DNA from: a virus
Reading direction: 5' to 3' (one strand)
IMG/VR virus record: IMGVR_UViG_3300034160_000048
Coordinates: 1 to 59,561 of that record
Length of the DNA: 59,561 nucleotides
Numbering within the stretch: position 1 is the first letter of the stretch; every line of letters starts with the position of its first letter. The position numbers and the translations under genes were made by a program. The notes under the pieces were generated by a model. The model was not told the origin of the DNA and made no database searches. It saw only the letters and a list, made by a program, of their open reading frames with translations. Below, one piece after another: positions 4,858 to 48,967 of this stretch.

Positions 4858-5043
4858 ATGAAAGAGACGATCTACACGCGCGAAGGGCAGAAGATCTGGG
4901 AGAAGGGTGCCAACGATTCTTGGTATCTGCTCGAGCACTTCAAGTCGATCAACGCCGCCAAGCGCAAGTCGCGTGAGCTGCAGGGCGGTGCCGCCGGGCT
5001 GGGCTCCGGGATCCTGAGGGTGGGTAAGCCGGGAGAAGCATAA
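4858..5043 (+). CDS. Small unknown protein
   Basis: A 61-residue protein starting MKETIYTREGQKIWEKG behind a strong GAGGAGATAAGG site, just past the terminator. It is basic and likely helical in the middle (INAAKRKSRELQG). Its stop overlaps the primase-polymerase start (TAATG), so it is co-translated with replication genes. Function unknown. Confidence 0.6.
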   Translation: MKETIYTREGQKIWEKGANDSWYLLEHFKSINAAKRKSRELQGGAAGLGSGILRVGKPGEA

Positions 5044-6632
5044 TGGTGACCGAGGAGCAGGTCGAACAGTTCCTGTCCCTGTTCCAGGGCAACGGGCGCT
5101 CGTTCGGCCAGTGGAACCCCAATTCCAAGTCGAAGATGCTTACGGTCAAGTCTGAGTACACGACCGAGCACGCACGGGCGCACCTTGAGGGCGAAATCGG
5201 GCTGGGCATGGTGCCCATCCGCGACGACAATAAGTGCTTGTTTGCGGCTATCGACATCGACGTCCACGGCCCTAACGGCGGGCACGTGGACCTGATCGCA
5301 ATCGAGTCGCGGATTGCCAAGGCCGCGCTCCCCTTGATCGTGTGCCGTTCCAAGAGTGGCGGCGCACACTGCTACCTGTTCTTGAAGGAGCCCGAGGACG
5401 CGAACTCAGTACGGTTGATGCTGGGCCGCTGGGCTGCGGTCGTGGGGCACCCGACCGCCGAGATTTTCCCGAAGCAGGCCAAGCTGGACCCGCCCAAAGG
5501 CAGCACGGATCGCCCCCTTGGCAACTGGATCAACCTCCCGTACTTCATGGCCGAGGGCACGGATCGGTATGCGCTCGACGGCGGTAAGGAAGTCAACTTC
5601 GACTATTTCATAGAAATGGCCGAGGGCAAGCGTGCCTCGCTGTCCGACTATAGCACGGTCGCCTCTGAGGTGGACTATTCGAAGGGCCCGCCGTGCGTGG
5701 CCGAGATGGTGAGGAACAAGGTCGAGGAGGGCAACCGGAATCTGGCCGCCTTCCAGGCCGGCATCTTCCTGAAGCGCGCCTTCCCCGAGGACTGGCGCAC
5801 CCGGCTGGAGGAGTTCAATAAGCAGGCGTTCGTGTCGCCGCTCAACGTCCGCGAGATGCGCACCATCGGCGGCAGCATTTCGAAGAAGGACTACCAGTAC
5901 AAGTGCCGCGAGGAGCCTTGCAAGACGCTCTGCAATAAGGATCTATGCAAGACGCGTGAGTTCGGCATCAGCAAGGACGACAGCACCGCGAACGAGATCC
6001 CGATATTCGACGCCGTCGAGAAGGTGATCGCAACGCCAGTGCGCTGGGTGCTGCGGATCGGAAAGGACGAGATCGAGGTGACGACCCCGCAATTGTTCAA
6101 CTACGACATGGTGCGGCAGGCCGTGGGCGAGCGGCTGCACATCGTGCTGCCCCGGATCAAGAATCAAGAGTGGGACCAGTACCTGCGCGAGATCATGAGC
6201 AAGGTCCAGGTGCGGCGGGAAACCACCATCGAGGACATGATCTTCCAGAAGCTGTGCGAGTACCTGCGCCGGGTGCGAGTGGACAAGACGCGGCCCGAGG
6301 ACGACCGGCGCGAGGACCTGCGCCGGGGCCAGCCCGCCCTGATTTCGATCACCCGCATGACCTTCATCAACGGCAAGGCCGAGGCTGCCGGGGAATGCGA
6401 GTGGTACTTCGCGTTCCGTCTGTTTGATTTCGTGGACTACCTGACCCGCAAGAAGGCGCTGCCCGTGCCAGCGCACCAGATCGCAACGTGCCTGACCCGA
6501 GTGCTGGGCGAGGACGCGAAGCGGGACAAGATGCGCGTAGGGCCGCACCGTGTCACCAACGTGTGGTGTGTGCCCGAGAAGTCGGTCGAGGAAGAGAGCG
6601 TACCTGCGAAGACCTTTGAGCAGGAGTTCTAG
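5043..6632 (+). CDS. Primase-polymerase of the archaeo-eukaryotic primase superfamily
   Basis: A 529-residue protein. The N-terminal half has the AEP catalytic set: AAIDIDVHG (Asp71 and Asp73), SKSGGAHCYLF (His109), and EIFPKQ (Glu140), followed by GNWINLPYF, as in the TOTE-type primases of phages. A Cys cluster (CREEPCKTLCNKDLCK, about residues 285-300) probably binds zinc. The C-terminal third is a separate unknown domain. It should make primers and may also extend DNA. A primase-polymerase is also found in Z-genome phage S-2L. It begins the replication block and is followed after 2 bases by the SNF2 helicase. Confidence 0.8.
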   Translation: MVTEEQVEQFLSLFQGNGRSFGQWNPNSKSKMLTVKSEYTTEHARAHLEGEIGLGMVPIRDDNKCLFAAIDIDVHGPNGGHVDLIAIESRIAKAALPLIVCRSKSGGAHCYLFLKEPEDANSVRLMLGRWAAVVGHPTAEIFPKQAKLDPPKGSTDRPLGNWINLPYFMAEGTDRYALDGGKEVNFDYFIEMAEGKRASLSDYSTVASEVDYSKGPPCVAEMVRNKVEEGNRNLAAFQAGIFLKRAFPEDWRTRLEEFNKQAFVSPLNVREMRTIGGSISKKDYQYKCREEPCKTLCNKDLCKTREFGISKDDSTANEIPIFDAVEKVIATPVRWVLRIGKDEIEVTTPQLFNYDMVRQAVGERLHIVLPRIKNQEWDQYLREIMSKVQVRRETTIEDMIFQKLCEYLRRVRVDKTRPEDDRREDLRRGQPALISITRMTFINGKAEAAGECEWYFAFRLFDFVDYLTRKKALPVPAHQIATCLTRVLGEDAKRDKMRVGPHRVTNVWCVPEKSVEEESVPAKTFEQEF

Positions 6633-6634: not shown

Positions 6635-8347
6635 ATGGCCGACGTAAGAATCGACGAAGAGAAGCGCCGCTTCATTATCAAGGGCAACGGGCGCGACGAA
6701 ATGGGCGTGCTGTTCGGCCTGCCGTCCCGCAAGTGGATGCCGAGCATGGGCGTAATCATCGCCCCATTCACGCGGCTCAACGCCAAGCACCTCGCTGACA
6801 AGGCTTTCGCCGGCAAGGTGCAGCTGACCCCCGAAGTCCGCGACTATGTCGAGGCGCTGGCGGTGGCCCCGTCCTCCAACCGGACGTTCCCGTCATGGTA
6901 CGCCTACAAGACGCAGCCATTCTTCGACCAGCGGGCGGCGCTCAACAAGGTGTACGCTAACGACTTTGGCGCGCTCTTCATGAAGATGGGCGTTGGCAAG
7001 AGCAAAGTCGCCATCGACTTCATGTCGGCCAGCTACTACGAGCGCCGGATCGAGGCCGTGGTGCTGGTGTGCCCGCTGACGATCCACGCGGTGTGGGGCG
7101 GCCCAAACGGGGAGTTGGCGACCCACAGCCCCTGCCCGGTCAAGGTGGTGCAGGTGGACTCGAGTTTCGACGCCAGCTCGATAAAGCCGAGTCAGGACTA
7201 CCTGCTGTGGCTGCTGGTCGGGGTCGAGTCGCTGTCACAGGGGCGCACGTTCGACAAGTTGATGCCGTTCCTGCGCAACTACAAGTGCGGCGGGCTGGTG
7301 GACGAGGCCAGCCGGATCAAGAACCACGCGGCAATCCGGACCAAGCGAATGTTGGAGATGCGCAACCAGTTCAAGGTCCGGTTGATCTCGACCGGCACGC
7401 CCTCGACCCGCAGCCTGATGGACCTGTACTCGCAGTTCGAATTCCTGGACCCCAACATCATCGGGGTGGGCGACTACTACGCCTTCAGGAACCGGTACGC
7501 GGTGATGGGCGGATACAAGGGTAAGGAGATCGTAGGGTACCAGTACGTCGACGAATTGATGGGGCTGATCGAGCCCTATACGTACATCTGCGAGAAGCCG
7601 AAGGACCTGCCCCCGCAGCTCTTCACCAAGCGCACAGTGAAGATGACCGACGAGCAGCGCAAGATCTACGACGACATGCGCAAGGGCAAGATCGACGGCA
7701 ACGATGTCACCAACGTGCTGACCCGGGTCCTGCGGCTGCAGCAGGTGATCGGGGGGCACTATGCCTCCGACGACACCTTTGCCGTGGACCCGATATCGGG
7801 GCGCACCAAGCGAATCGCGGGCAAGGTGCACCGCATCCTGCCGCCCGACAAGAACCCAAAGATCAAGGCATTGCTTGAGGTAGTCGAGGAAGCAGGCGAC
7901 GAGCAAATCATCGTGTGGGCCAAGTTCCTGCCCGAGGTCGAGGACATCCGGTCGGTGCTGGCGGAGATTGGGCCAGTAGCGGTGTTCACCGGGGCGACAT
8001 CGGCAGCGGAGCGAATCGAACTCAAGGACGGCTTTCAGTCAGGCAAGTATCGGTTTTTCGTCGGCAACGCCCAGACGGGCGGGCTCGGGCTCACCCTGAC
8101 GGCAGGCAGTGTGATGGTATACTACTCAAACACGCACTCGCTGGAAGACCGGCTGCAGTCCGAGGACCGGGCGCACCGCCGGGGCCAAAAGGCGGACCGG
8201 GTGCTGTATGTGGACCTGTTCATGGAGAAGTCAGTAGATAAAATCATAGAGGAAAGCATCGTGGAGAAGAAAGACTTGGACGTTTACGTCCGCGAGAAGA
8301 TCAAGGCGGCGGGCAGCATGACCAAGGCATTCGGGGATGTACTGTGA
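6635..8347 (+). CDS. SNF2-type superfamily 2 helicase/translocase
   Basis: A 570-residue protein. Motif I is MGVGKSK, motif II is LVDEASRIKN (DEAS instead of DEAH/DEAQ), motif III is ISTGTP, motifs V-VI are GLGLTLTAGS and EDRAHRRGQK. The RAHRRGQ arginine-finger motif is diagnostic of the SNF2/Rad54 group. Phages commonly place such an enzyme beside primase genes, where it acts as a replicative or fork-remodelling translocase. Start is an ATG 3 bases after the primase stop. Confidence 0.85.
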   Translation: MADVRIDEEKRRFIIKGNGRDEMGVLFGLPSRKWMPSMGVIIAPFTRLNAKHLADKAFAGKVQLTPEVRDYVEALAVAPSSNRTFPSWYAYKTQPFFDQRAALNKVYANDFGALFMKMGVGKSKVAIDFMSASYYERRIEAVVLVCPLTIHAVWGGPNGELATHSPCPVKVVQVDSSFDASSIKPSQDYLLWLLVGVESLSQGRTFDKLMPFLRNYKCGGLVDEASRIKNHAAIRTKRMLEMRNQFKVRLISTGTPSTRSLMDLYSQFEFLDPNIIGVGDYYAFRNRYAVMGGYKGKEIVGYQYVDELMGLIEPYTYICEKPKDLPPQLFTKRTVKMTDEQRKIYDDMRKGKIDGNDVTNVLTRVLRLQQVIGGHYASDDTFAVDPISGRTKRIAGKVHRILPPDKNPKIKALLEVVEEAGDEQIIVWAKFLPEVEDIRSVLAEIGPVAVFTGATSAAERIELKDGFQSGKYRFFVGNAQTGGLGLTLTAGSVMVYYSNTHSLEDRLQSEDRAHRRGQKADRVLYVDLFMEKSVDKIIEESIVEKKDLDVYVREKIKAAGSMTKAFGDVL

Positions 8348-8874
8348 GTGGCTTTATCGACCCCCGCTGCCCCCGCTGCGGCGGAAAAATTGGGGGGCCG
8401 CGAGAATTACATGAGCACCAAGACGGGTGCCCGCTGGACACGCACCCCGGGCAAAAATTCTATGGCAAGAAGCCTCCCGATTGCCCGCATTGTGGCGGCC
8501 CCTACCACGGAGTAGGGCTGGTTTGCCCCGTGGTCAAGGCTGTCCGAACTCTACCCCCGAAGGACGACGCGGACAAGCCGCAGATCTGGCGCGGGGCCCT
8601 CGATTACTTCCCGCTCGCCCTGATCGCCGTGGCCCGGGTCTCGGAGGTCGGTACGCGTGCCCCCGGGCACGAGTGGGGCGGCTGGCGTGACGTCCCGGAC
8701 GGCGCGAGGCGCTATACGGAGGCCATGGTGCGGCATCTGATGGCGGAGTCCACCGAGGGCCCGTACGACCTCACCGACAACCAACTCCACGCCGCTAAGG
8801 TTGCCTGGGGAGCGTTGTGTCGGCTCGAGCTGATGCTACGTGAGAAACGGGTGGACGCGGCCCCCGGCGCGTGA
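8344..8874 (+). CDS. Unknown protein with two N-terminal zinc knuckles
   Basis: A 176-residue protein starting at a GTG that overlaps the helicase stop (GTGA). Residues about 8-35 contain CPRCGGKIGG with H-x-H and a third Cys, and about 48-65 contain CPHCGGPYHG and LVCP, so one or two zinc sites are likely. The rest contains RYTEAMVRHLMAE and a helical tail. Conserved-looking but unassigned; probably a replication accessory. Confidence 0.6.
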   Translation: MSGFIDPRCPRCGGKIGGPRELHEHQDGCPLDTHPGQKFYGKKPPDCPHCGGPYHGVGLVCPVVKAVRTLPPKDDADKPQIWRGALDYFPLALIAVARVSEVGTRAPGHEWGGWRDVPDGARRYTEAMVRHLMAESTEGPYDLTDNQLHAAKVAWGALCRLELMLREKRVDAAPGA

Positions 8875-9798: not shown

Positions 9799-10599
9799 AT
9801 GGCAACACAGCAGGCAAAGAAACCGCAGGCCCAGGCAGTTAAGCCCTCGGCCGCGAAGACGCCTACGCAGGCAGTGGCGGCGACGAAGCCGACCGCAGTA
9901 GCGACGGTGCCCGACTACATCAAGCAGGGGGCAGGCCGTGGTAATGAGAATGTGGAGATGTCGGATTACGTCATCCCCCGCATCGAGGTCGTGCAGGCGC
10001 TCTCCCCGTGCCTCAAATCCAACGACCCCTCGTACATCGAGGACGCGTCGCAGGGCGACCTCTACAACTCCGTCACCCGCGAGCTGTACGGCAACGCCGT
10101 TACGGTCATTCCGGTCGTCTTCCGCAAGGAATACCTCGTGTGGAAGGACCGCACCAAGGGCGGCGGGTTCCGGGGCGCGTACCCTTCGATGCAGGAGGCG
10201 CAGGCCCGGATCGACGGTGAGAAGGACGGAGCGGATCTCGTCACCAACGAAACCGCGCAGCAGTTCGTGCTTATCGTCCGCGAGGACGGCACGATGGACG
10301 AAGCCGTCGTGTCGATGTCCAAGACCAAGCTGAAGATCAGCCGTCAGTGGAACTCGCTGATCCGGATCAACGGCAACGACCGCTTCTCGCGTACCTACGT
10401 GTTGTCTTCGACCGAGGACAACAATGAGAAGGGCGACTTCTACAACTTCGCGGTGGCCAACGCCGGCTTCCCGACCGTTGAGCAGTACAAGCGGGCCGAG
10501 TCGCTGTTCGAAGCTATCGCTTCGGGCGCGCGTCGCGTGGTGGCGGACACCAGTGACGGTGACCTTGACGGGCAGGCGCAGGCCCGGGGCGAATACTGA
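9799..10599 (+). CDS. Putative single-stranded-DNA-binding or recombination-associated protein
   Basis: A 266-residue protein. Residues 1-35 are a disordered Gln/Lys/Ala/Pro stretch. The rest is a globular domain with many beta segments (VIPRIEVVQALSPCL, AVTVIPVVFRKEYLVW, QQFVLIVREDGTMDEAVVSM, SRTYVLSSTEDN) and an acidic end (DTSDGDLDGQAQARGEY). The beta-rich core with an acidic tail and the location between primase and helicase genes fit a phage SSB, but no family signature is certain. A GGAGATCGACGATA site precedes the ATG. Confidence 0.5.
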   Translation: MATQQAKKPQAQAVKPSAAKTPTQAVAATKPTAVATVPDYIKQGAGRGNENVEMSDYVIPRIEVVQALSPCLKSNDPSYIEDASQGDLYNSVTRELYGNAVTVIPVVFRKEYLVWKDRTKGGGFRGAYPSMQEAQARIDGEKDGADLVTNETAQQFVLIVREDGTMDEAVVSMSKTKLKISRQWNSLIRINGNDRFSRTYVLSSTEDNNEKGDFYNFAVANAGFPTVEQYKRAESLFEAIASGARRVVADTSDGDLDGQAQARGEY

Positions 10600-10762: not shown

Positions 10763-12163
10763 ATGAAGACCACAGTATACTACGGCCCTCCGGGAACCGG
10801 CAAAACCCGCACACTCATGGAGCGTCTGACAGCGCATATCCAAGGGGGCGGCCGGAGGGCCCTTTTTTGCAGCCATACCAAGGCGGCTGCTCGCACCGCG
10901 TTTGAGCGGTGGGGCGGGGCCAGTGCGGGTGTAGACATCCAGACCCTGCACTCTTTCTGCTTTAAGGCCCTCAAGTTGACCCGGTCCCAGACGGTGGACG
11001 AGGCCAAGCTTGAAATCCTTCTTCATGAATTCGGGCTCGACATCGATGACGGCGGGGAGGGCAAGGCGTATGTTGAAGTTATGTCGGTGGCTCGAGCGAC
11101 TGGCGACGGCATGCTCGAAACGTACGACCGGCTTGGGCAGCCTGGAACTCGCTCACACTTCCAAGCCTTCGTGGCTACCTACGACCGCTGGAAGACCCAG
11201 TTCGGCTACCGGGACTTTAGCGACATGCTGGACGATTATTCCCGGAGCAACGATGCTGGGGGCTACGACCTGCTCGTGGTCGACGAAGCGCAAGACCTGA
11301 CCCCGCTCCATTGGAAGGCCCTGAGCCGCTTCATGGAGTTGAACCCTGACGCCGACGTCGTAATCGGCGGGGACGACGACCAGTGCATCTATAGTTATGC
11401 CGGGGCCGACGCCCACGGCATGGACACATTCATAAACCGCTACGGCGGCAACATCCGGACGCTGTCGCAGTCCTACCGTATTCCCCGCGTGGTGCACACC
11501 CTCGCCAAGTCGATCATCACCCGGGTCGAGAAGCGGGTGAAGAAGGTGTACAAGCCCACGAAGGAGCAGGGGACTTTCATGCTGTGGCCCGACCCCAGCT
11601 ACATGAAGCTGGACCCGGCCCGGGACACCCTTGTCCTGTTTAGTGACAAATTCGGCCGTCGCGACATCGAGGACCAGTTGCGCGATTCCGCCACACCCTA
11701 TGAGGCGGTGTCGGGGCTGCCGGGCCCGCTGCAGACGCGCGCCGGGCGGGCAATCCGGATGGCACACACCATAAAGGAGTGGACCGATGAAGATAAGGCT
11801 CTATTTAAAAAAGGACTCTCAGGGAGGGGTGTTGATTTGGCCGGATCAGTCGGTGTGGAAGCGGTCGCAGAAAAGATCCGCGCAGGATACTTCGACTACA
11901 CTACCGCCCGGATCGACGATGTGGACTATTTGGCCCGGGTCGACCACAGCCAGCCATGCAATATTCGGATTGCCACCATCCATGGGGCGAAAGGGATGGA
12001 GGCAGACGATGTCCATTTGTTTGACACCCGCTCCCAAGCCGCAATCTCCGAGTCCTTGGTCAACCCCGACCATGCGCACCGACTGGCATACGTCGCCGTG
12101 ACCCGGCCCCGCCACAACCTCTACATTTACGAGGGTGTCAACGGCTACGGTGGCTGGCAATGA
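10763..12163 (+). CDS. UvrD/PcrA-like superfamily 1 DNA helicase
   Basis: A 466-residue protein with a full SF1A motif set: YYGPPGTGKTRTLM (motif I), LLVVDEAQDLTP (II), GGDDDQCIYSYAGAD (III), LSQSYRIPRVV (IV), IATIHGAKGMEADDVHLFD (V), and LAYVAVTRPRHNLYIY (VI). It is shorter than cellular UvrD (about 720), lacking much of the insertion domains. Likely 3'-5' unwinding in replication or repair. Its stop overlaps the polymerase start (ATGA), so helicase and polymerase are translationally coupled. Confidence 0.88.
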   Translation: MKTTVYYGPPGTGKTRTLMERLTAHIQGGGRRALFCSHTKAAARTAFERWGGASAGVDIQTLHSFCFKALKLTRSQTVDEAKLEILLHEFGLDIDDGGEGKAYVEVMSVARATGDGMLETYDRLGQPGTRSHFQAFVATYDRWKTQFGYRDFSDMLDDYSRSNDAGGYDLLVVDEAQDLTPLHWKALSRFMELNPDADVVIGGDDDQCIYSYAGADAHGMDTFINRYGGNIRTLSQSYRIPRVVHTLAKSIITRVEKRVKKVYKPTKEQGTFMLWPDPSYMKLDPARDTLVLFSDKFGRRDIEDQLRDSATPYEAVSGLPGPLQTRAGRAIRMAHTIKEWTDEDKALFKKGLSGRGVDLAGSVGVEAVAEKIRAGYFDYTTARIDDVDYLARVDHSQPCNIRIATIHGAKGMEADDVHLFDTRSQAAISESLVNPDHAHRLAYVAVTRPRHNLYIYEGVNGYGGWQ

Positions 12164-13995
12164 TGCCCTCGGTCGACTACCTGCTGTCGCTGCCCCGGCT
12201 GGCGCTCGACACGGAAACTACCGGCCTCGACTGGCAGCGCGACCGTGTATTTGGAATCGCGATGGCGTGGCGCGACACCGGGAAGATCGAGAGTATCTAC
12301 ATTGATCTGCGGGAAGGGCAGTGGCTGCGCTGGGCCCGGGACGTCCTGCCCCGGCTGCGGCATATCGTCAATCACAACATCAAGTTCGACTGGCACATGC
12401 TGCGGTCGATGAAGATCGAGCTGGCCCCCGGCGCGTGTGACTGCACGATGATCCGGGAGACGCTGATCGACGAGAACCAGTTCGAATACAACCTCGAGCG
12501 GGTGAGCCAGAAGTACCTGCACACCGGCAAGGTGAACATCTGGCAGGAACTTGCTGACCTATTCGGGGGAAAGCCGACCAAGGAGGCGCAGATAGGGAAC
12601 CTGTCGAAGGCCCCATCGGCACTCGTATCCAAGTACGCAACAGGGGACGCGGAGAATGCGCTACGCATCTGGGAACATCAGGAAGCACTACTTACAGCTG
12701 ACGATCTCGGAGTGGTTGCTGCCATGGAACGTAAGCTACTCCAGGTGGTTGCGGAGATGGAGCGGGGTGGCGTACGTGTTGATATGGACGCGGCTGAGCG
12801 AGCAGTATCCCTTATCGATGCGAACATGGCGACGGCTCAGAAAGCCTTGGATAGGGCCGCCGGTCGTCCCATCAACGCAAACTCCCCAGCGCAGGTTAAA
12901 GCGCTGCTCGGTGTGCATTGTGACGACAAAGGTGACTGGCGAACTCGTGACGGGTTACTTCTGGAGCCGACCGAGTCGGGCAAGAGCGGTGCGCTGCGTA
13001 CCGAAAAGCTCTATCAGTGCACCCTTCCTGAGGCGGCGCTTATCGCAGAACTACGAGGCGGCATTAAGGCGCGCGATGTCTTCCTGAAGAAGTACATCCT
13101 CCAGATGTCGGTCAATGGGTACGTGCACGCGAGCATCAACCAGACCAAGACCGAGGCGGGGGACGGCACCTACACCGGGCGGTTCTCGATCACGGAGCCC
13201 GCGCTGCAGCAGATCCACAAGCGCAATAAGAAGATGGCCGCAATCGTGCGGGCCTGTTTCCTGCCCGACGAGGGCTGCGAGTGGGGCTGCTGGGACTGGT
13301 CACAGAAGGACTTCCGGATCTTCGCGCACTATGTGAACGACCCCAAGATCAATTCCATCTACGAGAAAAACCCGCTCGCGGACTTTCACCGGGTGACCGC
13401 CGATTTGACCGGCCTGCCCCGGGACCCGGACCAGAAAACGGGCGGCGCGAACGCCAAGCAGATGAACCTTGGCCTCGTGTTCGGCATGGCCGCAGGGCGC
13501 ATGGCCAAGGAGATGAACCTGCCATTCACAACCGACGAGAGTGGGTACCTCAAGGCGGGCCCCGAGGCGGAGGCCCTGTTTGCCAAGTACCACAACAACA
13601 TCCCGGGCGTGCAGCAGCTCAAGAAGGCCGTGGGGTCCGTGGCCCGGAGCAGGGGACATATTGTAACCCAGCTTGGGCGGCGGCTTCACTTCCCGAACGG
13701 TGAGGGGGCATACAAGGCCGCCGGCATCCTGTTCCAGGCACAGGCGGCGGAGTCGATGAAGATCAAGATGTGCGAGATTTACGACATCATGCAGCAGCAG
13801 AAGGGGAGCCGGTTCCTGCTCCCGGTGCACGACGAGTTTGACTTTGCGCTGGGGCCCAACCGGGCCCCGACGTTTGACGCTGATATGACTGCGCTTTTGC
13901 AGAGGTTTGACGGGGACATCACCCCGCTCAAGTATCGAATTCCGATCCGCGCCGATTATGGCACGGGTCCTAACTGGTGGGAGGCGAGCAAGTGA
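12160..13995 (+). CDS. dpoZ: Family A DNA polymerase with 3'-5' exonuclease domain, DpoZ-type
   Basis: A 611-residue protein. The exonuclease domain has LALDTETTGLD (Asp17, Glu19), VNHNIKFDWHM and YATGDAENALRIW. The polymerase domain has motif A WDWSQKDFRIFAHY (Asp379), motif B NAKQMNLGLVFG (Lys433) and motif C VHDEFDFA (Asp558, Glu559), so both activities look intact. No 5' nuclease. Being fused into an overlapping operon with purZ, it is most likely the Z-DNA replicase DpoZ known from phage phiVC8. Relative to E. coli Pol I, the O-helix Phe762 and Tyr766 positions are Leu437 and Phe441 here, and motif A has Asp where Pol I has Glu710. Two adjacent ATG codons (12160, 12163) could start it. 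Confidence 0.85.
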   Translation: MMPSVDYLLSLPRLALDTETTGLDWQRDRVFGIAMAWRDTGKIESIYIDLREGQWLRWARDVLPRLRHIVNHNIKFDWHMLRSMKIELAPGACDCTMIRETLIDENQFEYNLERVSQKYLHTGKVNIWQELADLFGGKPTKEAQIGNLSKAPSALVSKYATGDAENALRIWEHQEALLTADDLGVVAAMERKLLQVVAEMERGGVRVDMDAAERAVSLIDANMATAQKALDRAAGRPINANSPAQVKALLGVHCDDKGDWRTRDGLLLEPTESGKSGALRTEKLYQCTLPEAALIAELRGGIKARDVFLKKYILQMSVNGYVHASINQTKTEAGDGTYTGRFSITEPALQQIHKRNKKMAAIVRACFLPDEGCEWGCWDWSQKDFRIFAHYVNDPKINSIYEKNPLADFHRVTADLTGLPRDPDQKTGGANAKQMNLGLVFGMAAGRMAKEMNLPFTTDESGYLKAGPEAEALFAKYHNNIPGVQQLKKAVGSVARSRGHIVTQLGRRLHFPNGEGAYKAAGILFQAQAAESMKIKMCEIYDIMQQQKGSRFLLPVHDEFDFALGPNRAPTFDADMTALLQRFDGDITPLKYRIPIRADYGTGPNWWEASK

Positions 13996-15098
13996 GAAGC
14001 AAGACAATTGTAACGGTACAGGACCTGCAGTTCGGCAGCACAGGAAAAGGGCTGATTGCGGGCAGTGTTGCGTGCGCATGGGAACCGGACACTGTAGTTA
14101 CGGCGTGGGGCCCGAACGCGGGGCACACTTTCCGCGACGGCGAGCTTAACATGATCACGACCATGTTGGCCAGCTCCTCGGTCGCCCCCAGCGTGCAGAA
14201 CATCCTCATTGGCCCCGGGTCGGTGGTCAACCTCGAGAATCTAGCGGCCGAGATCCGCGCCGTCGGGCCGTTGCTGTCGGGCAAGTGGTTGATTCTACAC
14301 CCACAGGCGGCGATCCTGCGGCCCGAGCACGCAATGGCGGAGAAGGCGTTGATCACCATCGGGTCCACCATGAAGGGGACTGCCGAAGCCGCGATCTCCA
14401 AGATGCGGCGCGGGACCAGTGCCACGGCGAAGCAGCTACAGCTCATGGTGCGCGAGCACTTGGAAGGCGTGCTCGATGAATTCGACGTCATGTTCAGCAT
14501 GGAAGAAAAGATGTATGACAAGTCCATCGACGTCAGCAGCCGTATGATTGTCGAGGGCGCGCAGGGCTTCTCGCTGGGCATCCACGGGCCGTTCTACCCT
14601 TATGGCACCAGCCGGGACATCAGCACCGCGCAGCTGTTTGCGGATTGCCGGATCCCGTTCCCGACGCAGGGCGAGAGGGTGGTCAATATTGGGTGCTGCC
14701 GCACTTACCCTATCCGCGTAGCTAACCGGTTCAACGACAAGGGCGAGATGGTCGGGACCAGCGGCGGGCACTACCCCGACCAAGACGAGCTTACATGGGA
14801 AGCCATCGGTCGCCCGGTGGAACTCACCACAGTTACGAAGCTCCCGCGCCGCGTGTTCAGCTTTTCAAATCTGCAGGTGGCGGAGGCGGCCCGGGTGATG
14901 GGCACGACCGAAATCGCGCTGACCTTCTGCGACTACATCGCGCCGAGGCCGGGCGAGGATCAGGGGTTGCCAAGGGCCGTCACGGCCTTCTCGGAGCGCA
15001 TCCGTCGAGCGACCGGCATCATGCCCTCCCTGTTCAGCTTCGGGCCCGACCGCGCCGACGTCATCGCCCGGACGGGCTCCGTGGCGCTGGGGGACTGA
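13992..15098 (+). CDS. purZ: PurZ, 2-aminoadenylosuccinate synthetase (PurA homologue)
   Basis: A 368-residue adenylosuccinate-synthetase relative. PurZ uses ATP or dATP to join aspartate to dGMP, and host PurB then gives dZMP. The N-terminal loop reads FGSTGKG, where PurA enzymes have GDEGKGK: the catalytic Asp is Ser16 here, which fits PurZ rather than housekeeping PurA. GPNAGHT keeps the conserved His region, and GTSGGHYPDQDELTW lies toward the C-terminus. Its length is below bacterial PurA (about 430), as in Z phages. GTG 13992 is chosen because GGGAGG lies 7 bases upstream and it overlaps the polymerase stop (GTGA). Confidence 0.9.
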   Translation: MRSKTIVTVQDLQFGSTGKGLIAGSVACAWEPDTVVTAWGPNAGHTFRDGELNMITTMLASSSVAPSVQNILIGPGSVVNLENLAAEIRAVGPLLSGKWLILHPQAAILRPEHAMAEKALITIGSTMKGTAEAAISKMRRGTSATAKQLQLMVREHLEGVLDEFDVMFSMEEKMYDKSIDVSSRMIVEGAQGFSLGIHGPFYPYGTSRDISTAQLFADCRIPFPTQGERVVNIGCCRTYPIRVANRFNDKGEMVGTSGGHYPDQDELTWEAIGRPVELTTVTKLPRRVFSFSNLQVAEAARVMGTTEIALTFCDYIAPRPGEDQGLPRAVTAFSERIRRATGIMPSLFSFGPDRADVIARTGSVALGD

Positions 15099-15099
15099 C

Positions 15100-15510
15100 A
15101 TGACGAGATTCTACGATCTTGACTGGAACAACATGCGCCGGGTGCAGCAGGCGATCACCGATTGGGCGGACTCGCAGTTCCCGGGCCGCACCGCCCAGCA
15201 CGCCCTGTCGAAACTGGTTCTCGAGGAAGTCCCGGAGCTGCTGCAGCACAAGAAGTTGCACGGCACCAAGGGGATCGACACGGAACTGGCCGACTGCTTC
15301 GTGTTGCTCATGGATCTGGCGTCGCTGTGGGGCGTGGATCTGCCCGCCGCGATCCGGGCCAAGATGATCATCAACGAGAAACGCGTCTGGAAGGTTGACC
15401 CCGACACAGGGCTCATGAACCACACCGACGGGGTGAAACCGCTGACGCGGGAAGAAATCCAGGAAGCGATTGTGCTGATCGAAGAAACTGAAGGAGGTTC
15501 CCATGACTAG
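15100..15510 (+). CDS. mazZ: MazZ, MazG-like (d)NTP pyrophosphohydrolase
   Basis: A 136-residue all-alpha protein with MazG-type metal ligands: LVLEEVPELLQ (EExxE) and TELADCFVLLMDLA (ExxD). In Z phages MazZ converts dGTP to dGMP, the substrate of PurZ, and can also attack dATP. The gene starts 1 base after purZ and overlaps datZ by 8 bases, and this gene order supports the MazZ assignment over a generic MazG protein. Confidence 0.85.
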   Translation: MTRFYDLDWNNMRRVQQAITDWADSQFPGRTAQHALSKLVLEEVPELLQHKKLHGTKGIDTELADCFVLLMDLASLWGVDLPAAIRAKMIINEKRVWKVDPDTGLMNHTDGVKPLTREEIQEAIVLIEETEGGSHD

Positions 15511-16099
15511 TCCCGAACTTAAGGCCCTGCTCAAACTGTCCACCGTCCCCCGCTGGGCGATTGTGGACATGAGCCGGCAGCAATCCGTGGCTGAGCACAG
15601 CTACCGGGTCTGGGCTATCGCCGCCGAGCTGTACAAGGTGTTGTACCCGGCGCCCCACAATCAGGTGGACGAAATGGCCACGGCCCGCTGGGCGCTGGTG
15701 CACGACGTCGAGGAGGCTTTCATGGGCGATACGCCCTCGACAGCCAAGGAAATCCTCGAAAGGGTGGCCCCCGGCGTGGGGCAGAAGTGGGTTGATGCGA
15801 TAATCCAAAAGGAGGTTCCAGGGGTCGCAGCGTTTGCCCGTGGCGTGAAAGGTTCGCCCCCGGGCCACGTGGTCAAGATCGCGGACATTCTGGAGGCCAT
15901 CCTGTTCACCTTTGACTACGCGGTGAACGCCGGGGAAAAGGTCCGGGTGCTCAATTTCCTGTACGCGCAGTTGGGCGCGGCCTGGAGAAAGGCGCAGGCC
16001 GACATGATTACAGCCGACTGGCTAGGGGCGGTCGATTTCCGAAACCAGCTGCTTGCGGCGGAGCCCGCCGTGGCTCGCATTGAGGTGGACTACCCATGA
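15503..16099 (+). CDS. datZ: DatZ, HD-domain dATP triphosphohydrolase
   Basis: A 198-residue HD phosphohydrolase of the YfbR type: SVAEHSYRV (His32), LVHDVEEAFMGD (His67-Asp68) and KIADILEAI (Asp128) supply the metal site. In Z phages DatZ destroys dATP, so adenine is kept out of the new DNA. An AAGGAGGTTCCC ribosome-binding site lies inside the end of mazZ. Together with purZ and dpoZ this completes the known Z-DNA set. Confidence 0.87.
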   Translation: MTSPELKALLKLSTVPRWAIVDMSRQQSVAEHSYRVWAIAAELYKVLYPAPHNQVDEMATARWALVHDVEEAFMGDTPSTAKEILERVAPGVGQKWVDAIIQKEVPGVAAFARGVKGSPPGHVVKIADILEAILFTFDYAVNAGEKVRVLNFLYAQLGAAWRKAQADMITADWLGAVDFRNQLLAAEPAVARIEVDYP

Positions 16100-16368
16100 T
16101 CGACCTGTCCAAAGTGCCGCCAAAGTTGATTCACAACCTAATCAACGAGATGGCGGAGTTCAGGGCCTCCGGATTTAGGCAACCGATGCGTATTGACTAT
16201 GCCCTTGAAATGGTGCTGGCCATAGCGGAGCCCGAATTTTTTACCGAGTGGCGGCCTGCGCCCCGTTTTCACCCAACAGCCCGCCTTGAGAAAACGCCCG
16301 ATCTTTCCTCCACGGAAGACGTTTGGGGTTTCCTAAGGTCGAGCGGAGTTTATGACTCTCAGGTATGA
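16096..16368 (+). CDS. Small unknown protein at the end of the Z-DNA operon
   Basis: A 90-residue protein starting MIDLSKVPPKLIHNLINEM and joined to datZ by an ATGA overlap. The first 50 residues look like real protein (helical, IDYALEMVLAIAEPEFF). The last 43 codons overlap, on the opposite strand, the end of the large late gene that ends at 16241, so the natural end may be uncertain. Position suggests a link to Z-nucleotide metabolism, but no family is recognised. Confidence 0.5.
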   Translation: MIDLSKVPPKLIHNLINEMAEFRASGFRQPMRIDYALEMVLAIAEPEFFTEWRPAPRFHPTARLEKTPDLSSTEDVWGFLRSSGVYDSQV

Positions 16369-22135: not shown

Positions 22136-23551
22136 TCAACCACCTCCCGTGCCGGTTCCGCCGCTCATCGCCTGTTGCCATCCCGCCATGCCCGTACCCA
22201 TCGCCGCCAGCGTCGCCAGCGGCGACGGCTGGTAAACGTTCGAGGGCCCGGTGGCCGTGGTAGTAGTCGCCTGCCCGACTGCGCTATTCGGGACGCCCCG
22301 GATGATGTTCGACAGCCAGTCAACCTGCTGCTGCGGGAAGGCCCGCTGGGCGAGGAAGTCCTGATAGGCCATCGTAAGGTTCTGCTGATCGAGGTTCTGT
22401 TGCCGGGTGCCGATGGCGTCGAGCGCCGCCGCATCGCGGGTGTTGGCCGAGCTGATGTTGGTGCCGACGTTGGCCAGCGTCTGCGCAGCATCGAGCCCGG
22501 TTTGCGTCTGCTGGTTCGCCGCGTTGCCCGCGTACTGCCCGAGGGCCCCGAGCTGCTGCGACCCCTGCAGGCGGTTGCCGGTATCGAGGTTCGCGAAGTT
22601 GCCCATCGTCGTGCCCATGTCCGCGAACTGACGGCCCGCGTTGATGATGTTCTGCACGTTCTGGTTGGCAAGATTGCCGGAGTACTGCCCCAGCGCCCCC
22701 ATTGCCGCGCCCGCGTCCACCGCGTTGCGCTGGGCGGCCACCTGATTGCTCTGGTCGGTACCCGCCGCATTGGCCGCCGTCGCGCCGATCCCCGCAATGC
22801 GGTTCATGTCGGCACCGAACTGCGTGCCGGCTGTATTCCAGGCGTCGGACAGGGCGGCATTGGCGTTGGTCTGCAGCCCCTCGGTGATGTCCCGGACTCC
22901 CTTATTCATGACCTCGGCCATACGCGACGAGCCGAACTGCCCCGCGTTGGTGAAGGTGTCGGTCATGCTAGGCATCAGCGACTCGTCGTAGAAGCGTCGC
23001 GCTTCCAGCTTCGACTTGTCGATGACGTTCTGCGTGTAGGGATTCAGGTAATCGCTGATGTTCCCCGGCAGTGTCTTGCTAGCCGAGGTCAGGTAGGGGG
23101 AGGCCGAGGCGAGGGCCCCGGGGCCCGACACGCCGCCACTTACACCACCGAGTGTGCCCGCCGCCTTGGTGAAGTAGTTAGATGCGGCGGCAGACCCCGA
23201 CAGCGCCGGATTGAGCGCCGAGCCCGTGACGTCGAAGCCGCTCTGCACATACGGGTTGGCAGCGGATGCCGCCGAGCGCCCGGGGGCCAGCGCGTCCATC
23301 ACACCGGCAGCGGAGGTGTTGAAGTACGGCTGCGAGGCGGTCAGGGCCCCGGGCCCGTTGGCTGCGTTTGTTGCAGCGGTCCCGGCTTGCTGGAGCCACG
23401 GCAAGGAGGAACCCGCATTGGAACGCACCATGTCGTTCGCGGTGTTGGTGTCCCCGGTCATGCCGGCAATGCGCGGCCCGCCGTAAGTCTCGTAGGGCTG
23501 TGCGGCTACCGCGTTGGCCCGCCCGAGCAGGCCCTGCGTGTAGTCGGACAT
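22136..23551 (-). CDS. Internal/structural virion protein, N-terminus uncertain
   Basis: At least 471 residues from ATG 23551 (MSDYTQGLLGRANAVAAQPY). The protein is Ala/Asn/Gln/Gly-rich and helical, ending in a Gly-rich tail, like podovirus internal proteins. The same frame stays open for 30 codons upstream to the stop of the HNH gene and reads LLDFLFEGKPPASVTTYGS, then NVPQW directly before the ATG, which looks like genuine coding sequence. There is no ATG, GTG or TTG in that extension; an ATC at 23638 follows GGGTGA. So the true start may be non-canonical or have been damaged by the HNH insertion. Confidence 0.65.
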   Translation of the reverse strand: MSDYTQGLLGRANAVAAQPYETYGGPRIAGMTGDTNTANDMVRSNAGSSLPWLQQAGTAATNAANGPGALTASQPYFNTSAAGVMDALAPGRSAASAANPYVQSGFDVTGSALNPALSGSAAASNYFTKAAGTLGGVSGGVSGPGALASASPYLTSASKTLPGNISDYLNPYTQNVIDKSKLEARRFYDESLMPSMTDTFTNAGQFGSSRMAEVMNKGVRDITEGLQTNANAALSDAWNTAGTQFGADMNRIAGIGATAANAAGTDQSNQVAAQRNAVDAGAAMGALGQYSGNLANQNVQNIINAGRQFADMGTTMGNFANLDTGNRLQGSQQLGALGQYAGNAANQQTQTGLDAAQTLANVGTNISSANTRDAAALDAIGTRQQNLDQQNLTMAYQDFLAQRAFPQQQVDWLSNIIRGVPNSAVGQATTTTATGPSNVYQPSPLATLAAMGTGMAGWQQAMSGGTGTGGG

Positions 23552-23641
23552 CCACTGCGGGACGTTGGTTACTGTGGATCCGTACGTGGTGACGGACGCC
23601 GGAGGTTTACCCTCGAAAAGGAAATCAAGTAGCGAGATAAA

Positions 23642-24172
23642 TCACCCGATATGCCGATTGCCCTTCGCCACATTTGCAGCTAGGGAAATGGTCCTAAGGT
23701 TATAAGGTACATGGAGTCCGGACACGTTTTTACCTTTTAAAGGTACTATGTGGTCTACAGTAAGACCGAGTTCGCGAGCACGTAAATATATCGAAACAAG
23801 TTTCCCACGGTCGGCCCAAGCGGGAGTAGCTTGCCTCTGGCGGGCGCGACGAGCCGCTCCCCGAGAAGCACGAGCTGCTTTAAACTCGGGGCGTTCTCTA
23901 AACAACTTCCTTGCTTCCTTGTACCCGGGTCGTGCCGACCGCTCAGCCTGCTTGGCGCGTTCCGTGGCCTTGAAAGCTTCGGACTCGAGCCGCTTGCGGG
24001 CCCTCTTGGCGATCATCTTTTCGCGATGGCAGCCAATACAGCGGCCGTTGGCAATATAGCGGACGCCCTTTTCCTTGGGGTGGTCGGCACAGACGTGGCC
24101 TTCGTACTTGCTAGTATCGCCAATGCGAGTTTTAGCGCGGTACTTCTTACCCGCTTCGGACTTTTTAGTCAC
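23642..24172 (-). CDS. HNH homing-type endonuclease
   Basis: A 176-residue protein. Residues about 28-50 have CADHPKEKGV and GRCIGCHREK (zinc knuckle), the middle is a long Arg/Lys/Ala helix, and the C-terminus has the HNH core VDHIVPLKGKNVSGLHVPYN ending in NVAKGNRHIG. Such genes are mobile and insert between phage genes. Its ATG overlaps the stop of the upstream structural gene (ATGA). Its insertion apparently displaced the start of the downstream gene. Confidence 0.8.
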   Translation of the reverse strand: MTKKSEAGKKYRAKTRIGDTSKYEGHVCADHPKEKGVRYIANGRCIGCHREKMIAKRARKRLESEAFKATERAKQAERSARPGYKEARKLFRERPEFKAARASRGAARRARQRQATPAWADRGKLVSIYLRARELGLTVDHIVPLKGKNVSGLHVPYNLRTISLAANVAKGNRHIG

Positions 24173-25755
24173 CGGGCGGCCTTCTTCATGTAGCTTTCGA
24201 CCGAAGGCTTTGCATTAGGACTGATCTTACCGCGTGCCAGCGCAGACCCCTTATGCTTACGCACGTTCGCACGGAAGGCGTCCAGTTTCTTTGCCCCCGC
24301 CTCGGGGCTGCCATCCCCCAGCAGTGCAAGGGTTTCGGCATCGACCACATACTCGTTTTCGGACAGTAGTGCAGGAATGTCATCTTTGCGACCCCCCGAG
24401 CCCGCGCCCGAACTTACGAAGTGTGCCGAGCGCCCGAGGCCCCCCGACGCGAAACCTGGGACCCCCTGCATGATAGTGCTGAGGTCGGGCGTAGGCGTCG
24501 TCGGCTGCTGGTTCTGGAACGGCGTATAGGTGGTGGGTCCGTAGAACGCGTGCTCCCCCTGCGGGCTCATGCCGTACGTGTAATAGTTGGTGGGATTCGC
24601 CAGCCGCTGGCGCTGGAGCTGCAGTTGCTGTAGCGGCGTGGTGAAGTTGCTGGGCAACTCAGGCGGGGCACCCGACTGCGAGGAGCCCGCGCCACCGCTT
24701 CCGGCCAGCGCTGCGAGGCCCCCGGCCACGAGCAGCGGATTCAGGCCGCTGCCCGAGGAGGCCGCCGGAGCCTCCGGGGCCGCGACGACGGGGGCTCCGT
24801 TCTGAGTATACGGCACCGAGGACGACGCCGAAGCGGGAGCCGACGAGGCCCCCGAGCCGTTGAGGATGGAAGACAGGCTCGCCCCGCCCATGACGTCGCT
24901 CATGCTGCCGGAACTCGTCGGGGCGGTAAGGCCGCTCAGGCCGCTATACCCGGACGGAGTGCTATTATGAGTATAGGGGACCGAAGAAGTTGTCGTATCG
25001 TAGTTGCTGAAACCGGTGTCCATGCCGAAGCTGGGCACGTTCATCGAGCCCGTGTTGCCGCCACCCGCCGCGCCGTCCCCAAGCCCCATGCGCTCGATGG
25101 AACCAGCGACGGCCTTGTTGATGTACGGCATCACGAGACTGTCGGCAGCGGAGCCTAGCGCGCCCTGCGCAAAGTCACCACCGGTCGCAGCATTAGCACC
25201 ACCAGCAATCACGGCGTTGCCTACCATGTCGGCGGTCTTGCCCGACAGGCCAACGGCGCTGCCAAGCTTGCCGCCAGCACCCGTCGCCCCAAGCCCGCCT
25301 GTCACCGCACCGATAAGTGCCCCCTTGCTGCCGCCGCTCATGGCGCCAGACAAAGCGCCCTTCACCGCCGCTGTCACGGCGGGAAGGGCCGAAGCGCCGA
25401 CGCCCATGGCGGAGAGACCCGCCGATAGCGCGGTGCCCACACCGGGGATGAAGTTCAGGGCAATGGGCAGCACGACCTTGGCCACCTTCTTGATCTTCTT
25501 CCAGAGTTTGGAGAAGAAGCCGTACTCCGGGAGCCCGGTGTGCGGGTTGATCGTGGGCTCGCCCCACAGCTCCTGCATCTGCTTGAATTCGTCCGGGTTT
25601 ACGTGGATCAGGATGTCGTCGCCCATCCGGCCCCGGCCCCGCACGGCTTCCGCCGCCTGGGCAAGGCCGCCAGTAGCGAAAGCCGGGAGTTCGGCCCGCT
25701 CGTACAGGCGGATCGTGATCTTACCGTCCGGGTTCGTCTTGTAAGTCGTGCTCAT
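24169..25755 (-). CDS. Membrane-active internal virion protein
   Basis: A 528-residue protein. After a basic helix (FSKLWKKIKKVAKVVLP) comes a long Ala/Gly hydrophobic region (residues about 95-200; IALNFIPGVGTALSAGLSAM and repeated GALSGAMSGG-like segments) that could insert in membranes. The middle is Ser/Thr/Gly/Pro-rich and disordered. The C-terminus contains DDIPALLSENEYVVDAETLA, a motif common in phage structural proteins next to tail genes. Likely part of the DNA-ejection apparatus. Confidence 0.6.
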   Translation of the reverse strand: MSTTYKTNPDGKITIRLYERAELPAFATGGLAQAAEAVRGRGRMGDDILIHVNPDEFKQMQELWGEPTINPHTGLPEYGFFSKLWKKIKKVAKVVLPIALNFIPGVGTALSAGLSAMGVGASALPAVTAAVKGALSGAMSGGSKGALIGAVTGGLGATGAGGKLGSAVGLSGKTADMVGNAVIAGGANAATGGDFAQGALGSAADSLVMPYINKAVAGSIERMGLGDGAAGGGNTGSMNVPSFGMDTGFSNYDTTTSSVPYTHNSTPSGYSGLSGLTAPTSSGSMSDVMGGASLSSILNGSGASSAPASASSSVPYTQNGAPVVAAPEAPAASSGSGLNPLLVAGGLAALAGSGGAGSSQSGAPPELPSNFTTPLQQLQLQRQRLANPTNYYTYGMSPQGEHAFYGPTTYTPFQNQQPTTPTPDLSTIMQGVPGFASGGLGRSAHFVSSGAGSGGRKDDIPALLSENEYVVDAETLALLGDGSPEAGAKKLDAFRANVRKHKGSALARGKISPNAKPSVESYMKKAAR

Positions 25756-25759
25756 AAGG

Positions 25760-25996
25760 TCAGGCTCCCGTGGTGACCGCGTCAGTAAAGTACGTGGCCC
25801 ACTCCTCGAAGTTTTCGAATTGGTCAGGATTGGGCGGCTGCTGATCGGCCACCCCCGGAAGAGTCAGAACGGCTCGCGCCCACTCCTTCCAATCTTCATC
25901 GCGGCTCATGCGGGGAACCGGCCCAAACTGCCACAGGCCGAGGGCCATACGGTCGGCCCACTCAGTTGGGCGCATGCGGGTCGGGTTGATGATCAC
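25760..25996 (-). CDS. Small virion-region protein
   Basis: A 78-residue protein starting MIINPTRMRPTEWADRMALG, joined to the upstream gene by an ATGA overlap. It is Trp- and Pro-rich (RDEDWKEWARAVLTLPG, NPDQFENFEEWATYF). Short proteins of this kind often sit between tail-stabilisation and internal protein genes in podoviruses. Function unknown. Confidence 0.6.
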   Translation of the reverse strand: MIINPTRMRPTEWADRMALGLWQFGPVPRMSRDEDWKEWARAVLTLPGVADQQPPNPDQFENFEEWATYFTDAVTTGA

Positions 25997-27507
25997 GACG
26001 TAACCCTTCCATCCGCCGGCTCAACATGTGCAATCGTCTGCCCCATCTGGTAATCGCCACCAACGGTGTTGGAATCGAACCGGAAACTCATGAGGCGGCG
26101 CACCGCCTTGAGGGGCACGGTTTCATTCTCCGGGCCCGTCGCGGTGTCCGGGATCGTAAACGCCTCGCTGCTCACCTCGGTCGAGCGCGCGTTGGGACGG
26201 CCCAACACAACTACTTGCAGGTCCCCGGACTGTACGAAGTCGGGCTCGAGCCGCGCCACCCGCAGCGACTTGTCAGCGCTTTCCTGTTGGGTGAGCATCG
26301 AGATCTCGGCGGTCTGGAACCACGACCGCACCGGCTGCGTGTCAGTGCCGGTGGCCTGATCGACTCCATTTTCGTGATCCCACATCGTATAACCGGAGGT
26401 GGTCAGCGTCGCGTCGATCATCAAGTCCAGGTCCGCGATGCCGTTGTGGACTCCGACCGTGCGGGTAGTCGGGAGTTCGGTATCGTACCAGATGTTTTCA
26501 CGAACGTTGTAAATGATGGCATGAGAGCATTCGGTGTTGGAGCCCCGGGGGTAACACCACCAGATCTCGCCCCACCGGGGGAACTTCATCGCAAACACTT
26601 TCTGGCGGTACGCCATGTTGATGTTGTCGAAGAAGTCGTTGAAGTTCATCTGGTTGTCGATCTCACGAACGATACCATTAAACATCAGGAACCGGTCGGT
26701 GCCGATCCAGTAATAGATCGAGTCGTGCTCGATGATGCATTGTGAGGACATCACGGAGCTGTTGGTGGAAACAGTGTCGAAGGCCCAGATCGCGGTGCCG
26801 CCTACGTAGTTGGCGCGCAGCAGGGAGTCGAGCGACCACAACAGGGCCGCTGCGCCCGAGCCGCCGCCCCGCATCGGGATACCCCTCACGATCTTCTGGC
26901 CAGTAATATAAGCGTCTCCGGACCCGGCATTGGTGAAATCCGCAGGCTTATTCGCGACCGACCACGCGACGTGCCCGTTACTCCCGAATTTTAGCAGATA
27001 CGGAGCCGCGACGCAAATCCCCCCACTTTCCTCGGCCACGGCGGTATCGGTCAGGACCGCCCCGGCGGTCGTGACCCCGTAGAAGATCTTCCCGGTGGTC
27101 GTGTTGTCGATATTGGTCAGGTTAGGTGGCCCGTGGGCGATCAGTCGGCTCGAAGCACTAACTGAATCATACATCACCTCAAATTGCCACAGGTTATCGG
27201 TCGAGGACACGATGGCGGCAGGGGTGCGGTCGGTAAGCGCCGACAGGGAGGTGCCCGATAGGGTGTACTGCGTGATCTTGTTCTCGCTGCCGGTATGGAC
27301 GTAAGTCATACCGTTGGCGGTCATACAATTGATGCCCCGGGCCAATTGGGGCACCTCATCCGTGATCGACCGGAAGCCGCCCATCTTGCGGGGCAGGCCC
27401 CGTTGAAACCGGCACCACTGAGAGTCGATGTAAAATTCGCCCTCGAACACCGTGCCGTCACGCTTGACGCCCGGGCCCGACCGGATCAGGATAGGCTTAG
27501 TTGCCAT
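25993..27507 (-). CDS. Tail/neck stabilisation protein (P22 gp10-like)
   Basis: A 504-residue beta-rich protein starting MATKPILIRSGPGVKRDGTV. The repeated strand pattern (GTDRFLMFNGIVREI, ECSHAIIYNVRENIWYDTEL, HNGIADLDLMID) resembles the beta-propeller of P22 gp10-type head-closure proteins. Its start overlaps the spanin gene end by 11 bases. It would sit below the adaptor ring and retain packaged DNA. Assignment is by pattern and context. Confidence 0.55.
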   Translation of the reverse strand: MATKPILIRSGPGVKRDGTVFEGEFYIDSQWCRFQRGLPRKMGGFRSITDEVPQLARGINCMTANGMTYVHTGSENKITQYTLSGTSLSALTDRTPAAIVSSTDNLWQFEVMYDSVSASSRLIAHGPPNLTNIDNTTTGKIFYGVTTAGAVLTDTAVAEESGGICVAAPYLLKFGSNGHVAWSVANKPADFTNAGSGDAYITGQKIVRGIPMRGGGSGAAALLWSLDSLLRANYVGGTAIWAFDTVSTNSSVMSSQCIIEHDSIYYWIGTDRFLMFNGIVREIDNQMNFNDFFDNINMAYRQKVFAMKFPRWGEIWWCYPRGSNTECSHAIIYNVRENIWYDTELPTTRTVGVHNGIADLDLMIDATLTTSGYTMWDHENGVDQATGTDTQPVRSWFQTAEISMLTQQESADKSLRVARLEPDFVQSGDLQVVVLGRPNARSTEVSSEAFTIPDTATGPENETVPLKAVRRLMSFRFDSNTVGGDYQMGQTIAHVEPADGRVTS

Positions 27508-29047: not shown

Positions 29048-29052
29048 CTCTC

Positions 29053-32365: not shown

Positions 32366-32368
32366 GTC

Positions 32369-33007: not shown

Positions 33008-33008
33008 C

Positions 33009-36170: not shown

Positions 36171-36198
36171 ACATCCTCTCTAAGTTTACGGCACGCCG

Positions 36199-36921: not shown

Positions 36922-36933
36922 AAAATACCTCTT

Positions 36934-39518: not shown

Positions 39519-39524
39519 CGTCGA

Positions 39525-39644: not shown

Positions 39645-39656
39645 TTTACATCTCCT

Positions 39657-45167: not shown

Positions 45168-45173
45168 AGCGGG

Positions 45174-46054: not shown

Positions 46055-46058
46055 GGTC

Positions 46059-46757: not shown

Positions 46758-46788
46758 TGTCGTTGTCTCCGTTTAGTTTCGGGGAAGA

Positions 46789-48961: not shown

Positions 48962-48967
48962 AACTGC

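Follow-up and report, generated by a model that had tools for sequence, protein, structure and literature searches.

A predicted 2-aminoadenine cassette in an uncultivated phage with a virion module like that of Caulobacter phage RW

Does an uncultivated phage carry 2-aminoadenine (Z) instead of adenine in its genome? The question is raised by IMG/VR record IMGVR_UViG_3300034160_000048, a linear virus record of 59,561 bases that we analyzed over its whole length (the window). An original prediction held that positions 12160-16099 encode a complete set of enzymes for making the triphosphate of Z (dZTP), removing dATP, and copying the genome. We put at roughly 0.92 the probability that this locus is a working cassette for a Z genome, of the PurZ/DpoZ-2 kind and carried on a virion chassis resembling that of Caulobacter phage RW. 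The four genes are as follows:

12160..13995 (+), DpoZ (DpoZ-2 type), a family A DNA polymerase with an intact 3'-5' exonuclease
13992..15098 (+), PurZ, a predicted dGMP-dependent succino-2-aminodeoxyadenylate synthetase
15100..15510 (+), MazZ (MazZ-1 type, stand-alone), a predicted MazG-like (d)GTP pyrophosphohydrolase
15503..16099 (+), DatZ, a predicted HD-domain dATP triphosphohydrolase

The junctions, read directly from the sequence, establish the coupling that the original prediction had described. The DpoZ stop and the GTG start of PurZ share four bases (13992-13995, GTGA), a single base (15099) separates PurZ from MazZ, and MazZ and DatZ overlap by eight bases (15503-15510). The GTG at 13992 is most likely the start of PurZ, the start at 13977 of the mechanically called open reading frame (ORF) being less likely. 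The predicted gene identities are likewise borne out: the polymerase matches Pfam DNA_pol_A (4.9e-45) and a 3'-5' exonuclease domain (2.3e-9), the PurA homolog has Ser in place of the catalytic Asp (FGSTGKG), the MazG-like protein matches the structure of S-2L MazZ (7ody, 1.3e-11), and the HD hydrolase matches both phrog_7076, "dATP triphosphohydrolase" (2.5e-19), and S-2L DatZ (6zpa, 5e-8). Four neighboring family matches of such strength are far beyond chance and establish what the genes are. Moreover, in searches of the PDB the best match of PurZ, of MazZ, and of DpoZ was in each case an enzyme from a Z phage. A PADLOC search returned generic polymerase and exonuclease matches only. Because the first 25 kb of the window had no near match at the DNA level among known phages, we traced its kinship through proteins, and we mapped functional positions from published structures onto the window proteins by alignment.

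The polymerase scores 664.9 bits (1.1e-199) against the NCBIfam model DpoZ_1, exceeding the curated cut-off of 500, and its best PDB match is phiVC8 DpoZ (7pbk, 7.6e-114), with Escherichia coli Pol I far behind (4.7e-32). Marks of the DpoZ clade are Leu455, Phe459, and Gly548 in phiVC8 numbering (PMC8599892). As judged by the alignment, the window enzyme retains exonuclease residues D17/E19, R341, R421, O-helix residues L437/F441, G522, and the HD at 557-558; of these, L437, F441, G522, R421, and D17/E19 correspond to phiVC8 L455, F459, G548, R440, and D26/E28. Insertions 1 and 2 of the phiVC8 type also align. In a phylogenetic tree the polymerase falls within a 30-row clade of polymerases from PurZ loci (99/98), where its sister is that of the IMG/VR contig L012 (100/99), and the nearest polymerases of non-Z phages fall outside this clade. 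(One row in the clade, a Microbacterium polymerase, is partial and in the wrong frame, and was ignored.) A scan with the window DpoZ alone, whose peptide patterns proved overly specific for the purpose, returned one locus. We also observed a second, stand-alone DnaQ/DEDDh-like exonuclease gene (2856-3539; phrog_192, 5e-44), which is present although the polymerase already has an exonuclease of its own, and which recurs in the related contig G058.

The synthetase scores 264.8 bits (8.7e-79) against the NCBIfam PurZ model, below the curated cut-off of 300, and 81.6 bits against the purA model, for which the cut-off is 395.55; for calibration, E. coli PurA scores 127 bits against the PurZ model. 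Its best PDB matches are the PurZ proteins of phiVC8 (6fm1, 1.5e-60) and S-2L (7odx, 5.7e-53). A predicted structure (predicted local distance difference test [pLDDT] 88, predicted template-modeling score [pTM] 0.89) gave as top folds 6fko/7odx, the PurZ proteins of phiVC8 and S-2L (E values 4e-34 to 2e-31), followed by archaeal PurA (4e-24), PurZ0 (2.5e-21), and then ordinary PurA. Ser16 stands at the position of the catalytic Asp of PurA (Asp13), and the enzyme retains Ser23, Asn49, Ala50, Thr132, Gln190, Val241, and the TTVT loop at 273-276 (S-2L numbering; PMC8342488). In the PurZ tree the sister is L012 (100/97) and PurA is split off at 100/100; once contig G058 is included, G058 becomes the sister (100/98) and L012 the next relative (100/99).

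The Ser-for-Asp substitution did not prove diagnostic by itself, and we rejected it as the sole carrier of the claim, for GSTGKG synthetases also occur in bacterial metagenome-assembled genomes (MAGs) that have Ser without the other Z genes. Two PurZ-like synthetases with QFGSTGKG (L096:7950-8993 and L095:7959-8993) lie in Pseudomonadota MAGs, one of them on a 994-kb contig, and are apparently chromosomal. They are flanked by cmk on one side and an RdgB/HAM1-like gene on the other, in the vicinity of rpsA; none of DatZ, MazZ, and DpoZ lies nearby, and the TIGR00184 model detected no PurA above its cut-off in either genome. Among 41 genomes searched around G004, a strong match was found in these two only. 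A Ser-type synthetase may serve a cellular role. Elsewhere, an "adenylosuccinate synthetase" of Flavobacterium phage MaF61 (L104:1953-3296) contains GSSGKG, sits on a very long branch of the PurZ tree, and is neither clearly PurA nor clearly PurZ. Two full cassettes have PurZ proteins in which the Ser of the P-loop is kept and the remainder is changed: GSEAKG, as in PurZ0, in contig G058 (L240, 16675-17829) and GSCGKG in contig G069 (L242, 5683-6765). Our pattern scan for PurZ missed both contigs, and motif-based scans in general overlook these variants.

MazZ has no Pfam or NCBIfam match. The reference residues are metal ligands E35, E38, E50, and D53, together with I56 and with D60, which reads the 2-amino group of guanine (PMC8342488); aligned with these, the window protein retains the ligands as E43, E46, E62, and D65, and also retains the guanine-reading D72, as well as R95. 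It is 43% identical over aligned columns to the MazZ protein of SH-Ab 15497.

In a PDB sequence search with DatZ, S-2L DatZ and archaeal HD proteins stood about level for first place. The best fold for its predicted structure (pLDDT 92) was S-2L DatZ (6zpa, 1.6e-8), with YfbR second (8e-6). A DatZ tree that included YfbR paired the window with L012 (100/81) and was for the rest mostly poorly resolved, and we therefore relied on residues and fold instead. Trp20 of S-2L DatZ shuts out ribose, and Ile22 shuts out the 2-amino group (PMC8065100). Along the alignment the window enzyme retains R17, W18, I20, Q27, A30, H32, H67, D68, E71, K82, K125, and D128; the metal ligands and the counterparts of S-2L R19, W20, I22, Q29, A32, K81, and K116 are all present.

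Family scores, specificity residues, trees, and predicted structures thus all support the interpretation as a Z cassette, and, as far as the alignments indicate, the catalytic residues of all four enzymes are kept, as are nearly all specificity residues. By analogy with the characterized homologs, MazZ would convert dGTP to dGMP, which PurZ would join to aspartate, using ATP or dATP, to form succino-2-amino-dAMP; PurB and nucleotide kinases of the host would then complete dZTP. DatZ, perhaps together with the product of a nearby DUF5664 gene described below, would destroy dATP, and a dZTP-preferring DpoZ would copy the genome with Z opposite T. We infer that the virion DNA contains 2-aminoadenine. 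Full replacement of A by Z is likely, and the phage would then be expected to resist enzymes that read A.

Several observations weigh against this reading. The genome is known from a metagenome contig. PurZ lies under its cut-off, which the enzymes of S-2L (350 bits), phiVC8 (397), and SH-Ab 15497 (422) exceed, and has Asp in place of Gln308, a position occupied by Asn in most relatives. In DpoZ, insertion 3 is about eight residues shorter than in phiVC8 and one Gly before motif A is replaced by Tyr; in MazZ, Ile56 is conservatively replaced by Val (Val68 in the window); and in DatZ, Pro79 is replaced by Thr (Thr80 in the window). Finally, the approximately unbiased (AU) test did not reject a tree in which PurA joins the branch of the window (p 0.24), and forcing the two together cost 12.7 log units. 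As to the cut-off, relatives with full cassettes also score below 300 bits (OH phage 241, G058 282, G069 286), and the value was set for annotation and marks no limit of function. As to the AU test, a grouping of the window with PurZ0 was likewise not rejected; we do not take either result as a sign of kinship with PurA or PurZ0 but ascribe both to a weak root, the outgroup branch being very long. It is the uncertain root of the PurZ tree that lets the placement of PurA escape rejection. A grouping with PurA, which the original prediction had named as contrary evidence, was thus weakly tested, the sister positions of L012 and G058 and the separation of PurA speaking on one side and the AU result on the other.

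These same observations bear on what else the locus might be. Replacement could be incomplete, so that working enzymes merely tune the nucleotide pool and the virion DNA is a mixture of Z and A. In keeping with this, PurZ and MazZ are divergent from their characterized members, and in E. coli carrying the S-2L triad a significant share of the A was converted, but not all (PMC8342488). Here, however, the window encodes both an enzyme to remove dATP and a polymerase of the DpoZ type, a combination that in isolated phages is tied to full replacement (PMC12884076), and we consider a mixed genome unlikely. It is far less probable that the synthetase is PurA-like, making AMP from inosine monophosphate (IMP) in the service of host takeover, that the HD protein is a YfbR-like deoxynucleoside monophosphate nucleotidase, and that no Z is made. 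The sub-threshold PurZ score, the second rank of YfbR among folds for the HD model, and the weak root of the PurZ tree would fit such an arrangement, but Ser16 and the PurZ pocket are retained, the purA score is a small fraction of its cut-off, the synthetase model is nearer to PurZ than to any PurA, and the HD protein shares Gln27 and Ala30 with DatZ (S-2L Gln29 and Ala32), two positions that are Glu and Ser in E. coli YfbR; DpoZ and MazZ would, besides, go unexplained. That the cassette is a decaying relic out of use, as the divergence of PurZ and the shortened DpoZ insertion might hint, is barely credible given that all four frames are open, that their starts are coupled, that their catalytic residues are kept, and that no other replicative polymerase was found among the larger window ORFs searched.

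A functional Z cassette being the preferred reading, we turn to its setting. The cassette belongs to a larger replication module that extends from a primase to DatZ. The other genes named in this region are:

5043..6632 (+), primase (AEP/PrimPol-like; phrog_21866 primase, 7.2e-98), found at the same place in many relatives
6635..8347 (+), SNF2/superfamily II helicase (Pfam SNF2-rel_dom, 3.2e-13)
8344..8874 (+), stand-alone DUF5664 protein (PF18909, 8e-14, over the gathering score)
9799..10599 (+), Pam3_Gp34-like protein (PF23977, 3.6e-67), a conserved member of the module
10763..12163 (+), UvrD/PcrA-like helicase (Pfam UvrD-helicase, 4.4e-18), translationally coupled to DpoZ
16096..16368 (+), 90-amino-acid ORF, the last gene of the rightward operon, overlapping the end of DatZ

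Rightward from 5.0 kb, the primase, SNF2 helicase, and DUF5664 genes are followed by two genes for small proteins, the Pam3_Gp34-like gene, and UvrD, and then by DpoZ, PurZ, MazZ, DatZ, and the 90-amino-acid ORF; from UvrD onward all are coupled by overlaps of four to eight bases or a one-base gap. The UvrD stop and DpoZ start share four bases (12160-12163, ATGA), as do DatZ and the final ORF (16096-16099), which has no Pfam, NCBIfam, or PHROG match and no homolog in related loci. The order primase-SNF2-Pam34-UvrD-DpoZ-PurZ-MazZ-DatZ recurs in isolated phages and in most of 80 IMG/VR PurZ loci. The SNF2 helicase is collinear in SH-Ab, PMBT28, L012, G058, and G069, the UvrD helicase occupies the same place in SH-Ab and PMBT28, and a Pam3_Gp34-like gene is present in nearly all cassette loci whose contig reaches far enough upstream. 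The PurZ, DpoZ, and DatZ trees share L012 as sister, and thus the module moved together; its co-inheritance with the cassette is established.

The DUF5664 gene probably belongs to the Z cassette as well. The N-terminal half of phrog_801 matches the window DUF5664 protein and its C-terminal half matches MazZ; the two are fused in SH-Ab 15497, PMBT28, PSA28, and others, and G058 has a DUF5664 homolog at the same position as the window. Among the loci scored, and within the limits set by contig ends, 12 have the fusion, 63 have a stand-alone MazZ with DUF5664 undetected, and 7, including the window, have both as separate genes. A DUF5664 enzyme of phage Wayne hydrolyzes dATP and dGTP, preferring dATP (PMC12884076), and the window protein could by analogy be an additional dATP/dGTP diphosphohydrolase. 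In five other loci (L064, L080, L081, L086, and L089) PurZ and DatZ are accompanied by a DUF5664 gene, but neither MazZ nor DpoZ was detected within about 8 kb; in loci of this type DUF5664 may replace MazZ.

The late genes have other relatives, and make up the following module:

22136..55349 (-), late structural/packaging module (capsid, 46842-47756; large terminase, 53859-55349), related to Caulobacter phage RW

About 15-20 late proteins (22-55 kb) are collinear with RW, and most also with a Manatee Spring siphophage. Gene order and genome layout are like those of RW, with identities of 78% for the capsid, 51% for the large terminase, and 45% for the product of 51200-53869; for the Manatee Spring siphophage they are 73% (capsid) and 41% (large terminase). 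Neither record has a PurZ, DpoZ, MazZ, or DatZ match. The replication module of RW (RepA/primase, DUF2800, DUF2815, and a 960-amino-acid polymerase) is unrelated to that of the window, which is instead collinear with SH-Ab 15497, PMBT28, and L012. The capsid alone suggests a host in the Caulobacterales. Also within the late module, and without an RW match, are a nucleotide-sugar epimerase (35160-36170) and a glycosyltransferase-like protein (36199-36921).

How often did such modules enter this chassis? Relatives of the window capsid occur in at least 578 IMG/VR stretches. Two of 22 longer capsid-type contigs that we checked (G058 and G069) have PurZ and DpoZ and five have an RW-type polymerase, the rest, possibly fragments, being left undecided. 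G069 has L083 as its partner in the PurZ tree (100/100), apart from the window and G058. That tree rejects a single Z clade of the window, G058, and G069 (p 0.004), and so does the capsid tree (p 0.0275), with at least three state changes. Three contigs of a further PurZ clade (G080, G081, and G087; loci L060, L030, and L088) have capsids that are 74-75% identical as well, so that PurZ on contigs with this capsid type falls into about three separate lineages. We think it fairly likely that whole Z replication modules were installed in a single virion lineage, that of the RW-type Caulobacter-phage chassis, at least twice, probably three times, the alternative being that the module was gained early and later replaced or lost. 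That Z machinery is transferred horizontally has already been inferred (PMC12884076). Repeated installation would yield pairs of close virions, one bearing the Z cassette and one lacking it, whose capsids are 73-84% identical; the window and RW form one concrete Z/non-Z pair, in which the whole replication module appears to be the moving unit. Since these virion genes are near those of a cultivable non-Z phage, one may ask which changes in packaging, capsid, and transcription, if any, accompany a switch from A to Z. Within the collection of literature searched, no report named both a Caulobacter phage and 2-aminoadenine.

Finally, we compare the window with known systems. The original prediction had ascribed one and the same set to S-2L, phiVC8, and SH-Ab 15497; the interpretation is supported, but their gene content differs. 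S-2L has the order PurZ-MazZ-DatZ, a stand-alone MazZ-1, and the same pocket residues, but has PrimPol in place of DpoZ (PMC8342488) and a different virion module. phiVC8 has DpoZ, PurZ, and DatZ, and supplies the nearest solved PurZ and DpoZ structures, but it encodes an 86-amino-acid MazZ-2 instead of MazZ-1 and has a 2.3-kb gene between DpoZ and PurZ (PMC8342488). Among the closest known systems are those of Acinetobacter phage SH-Ab 15497 and Salmonella phage PMBT28 (with Pseudomonas PSA28 and Klebsiella VLCpiS6a), in which helicases, UvrD, DpoZ, PurZ, MazZ, and DatZ are ordered as in the window, with identities of about 41-43% for PurZ and about 41% for DpoZ. In that group, however, a small gene for a single-stranded-DNA-binding protein separates DpoZ from PurZ, which in the window overlap directly, and MazZ is fused to DUF5664, which in the window is a separate gene; both differences bear on how Z pathways are assembled. 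Nearest of all is the cassette of G058 (L240, L241; DpoZ about 59-63% and PurZ 51-53% identical), in which PurZ has GSEAKG for GSTGKG and is separated from DpoZ by a gap; L012 (DpoZ 50%, PurZ 48%), on a 72-kb contig, lacks the RW-type capsid and large terminase. Phages of the Wayne and Ghobes kind pursue the same goal, dZTP synthesis and dATP removal, with PurZ0 and DpoZ-1 proteins of separate clades and with DutZ/DmtZ for DatZ/MazZ (PMC12884076). The window cassette is a further member, divergent yet complete, of a known class of gene sets (PMC8065100, PMC8342488, PMC8599892, PMC12884076).

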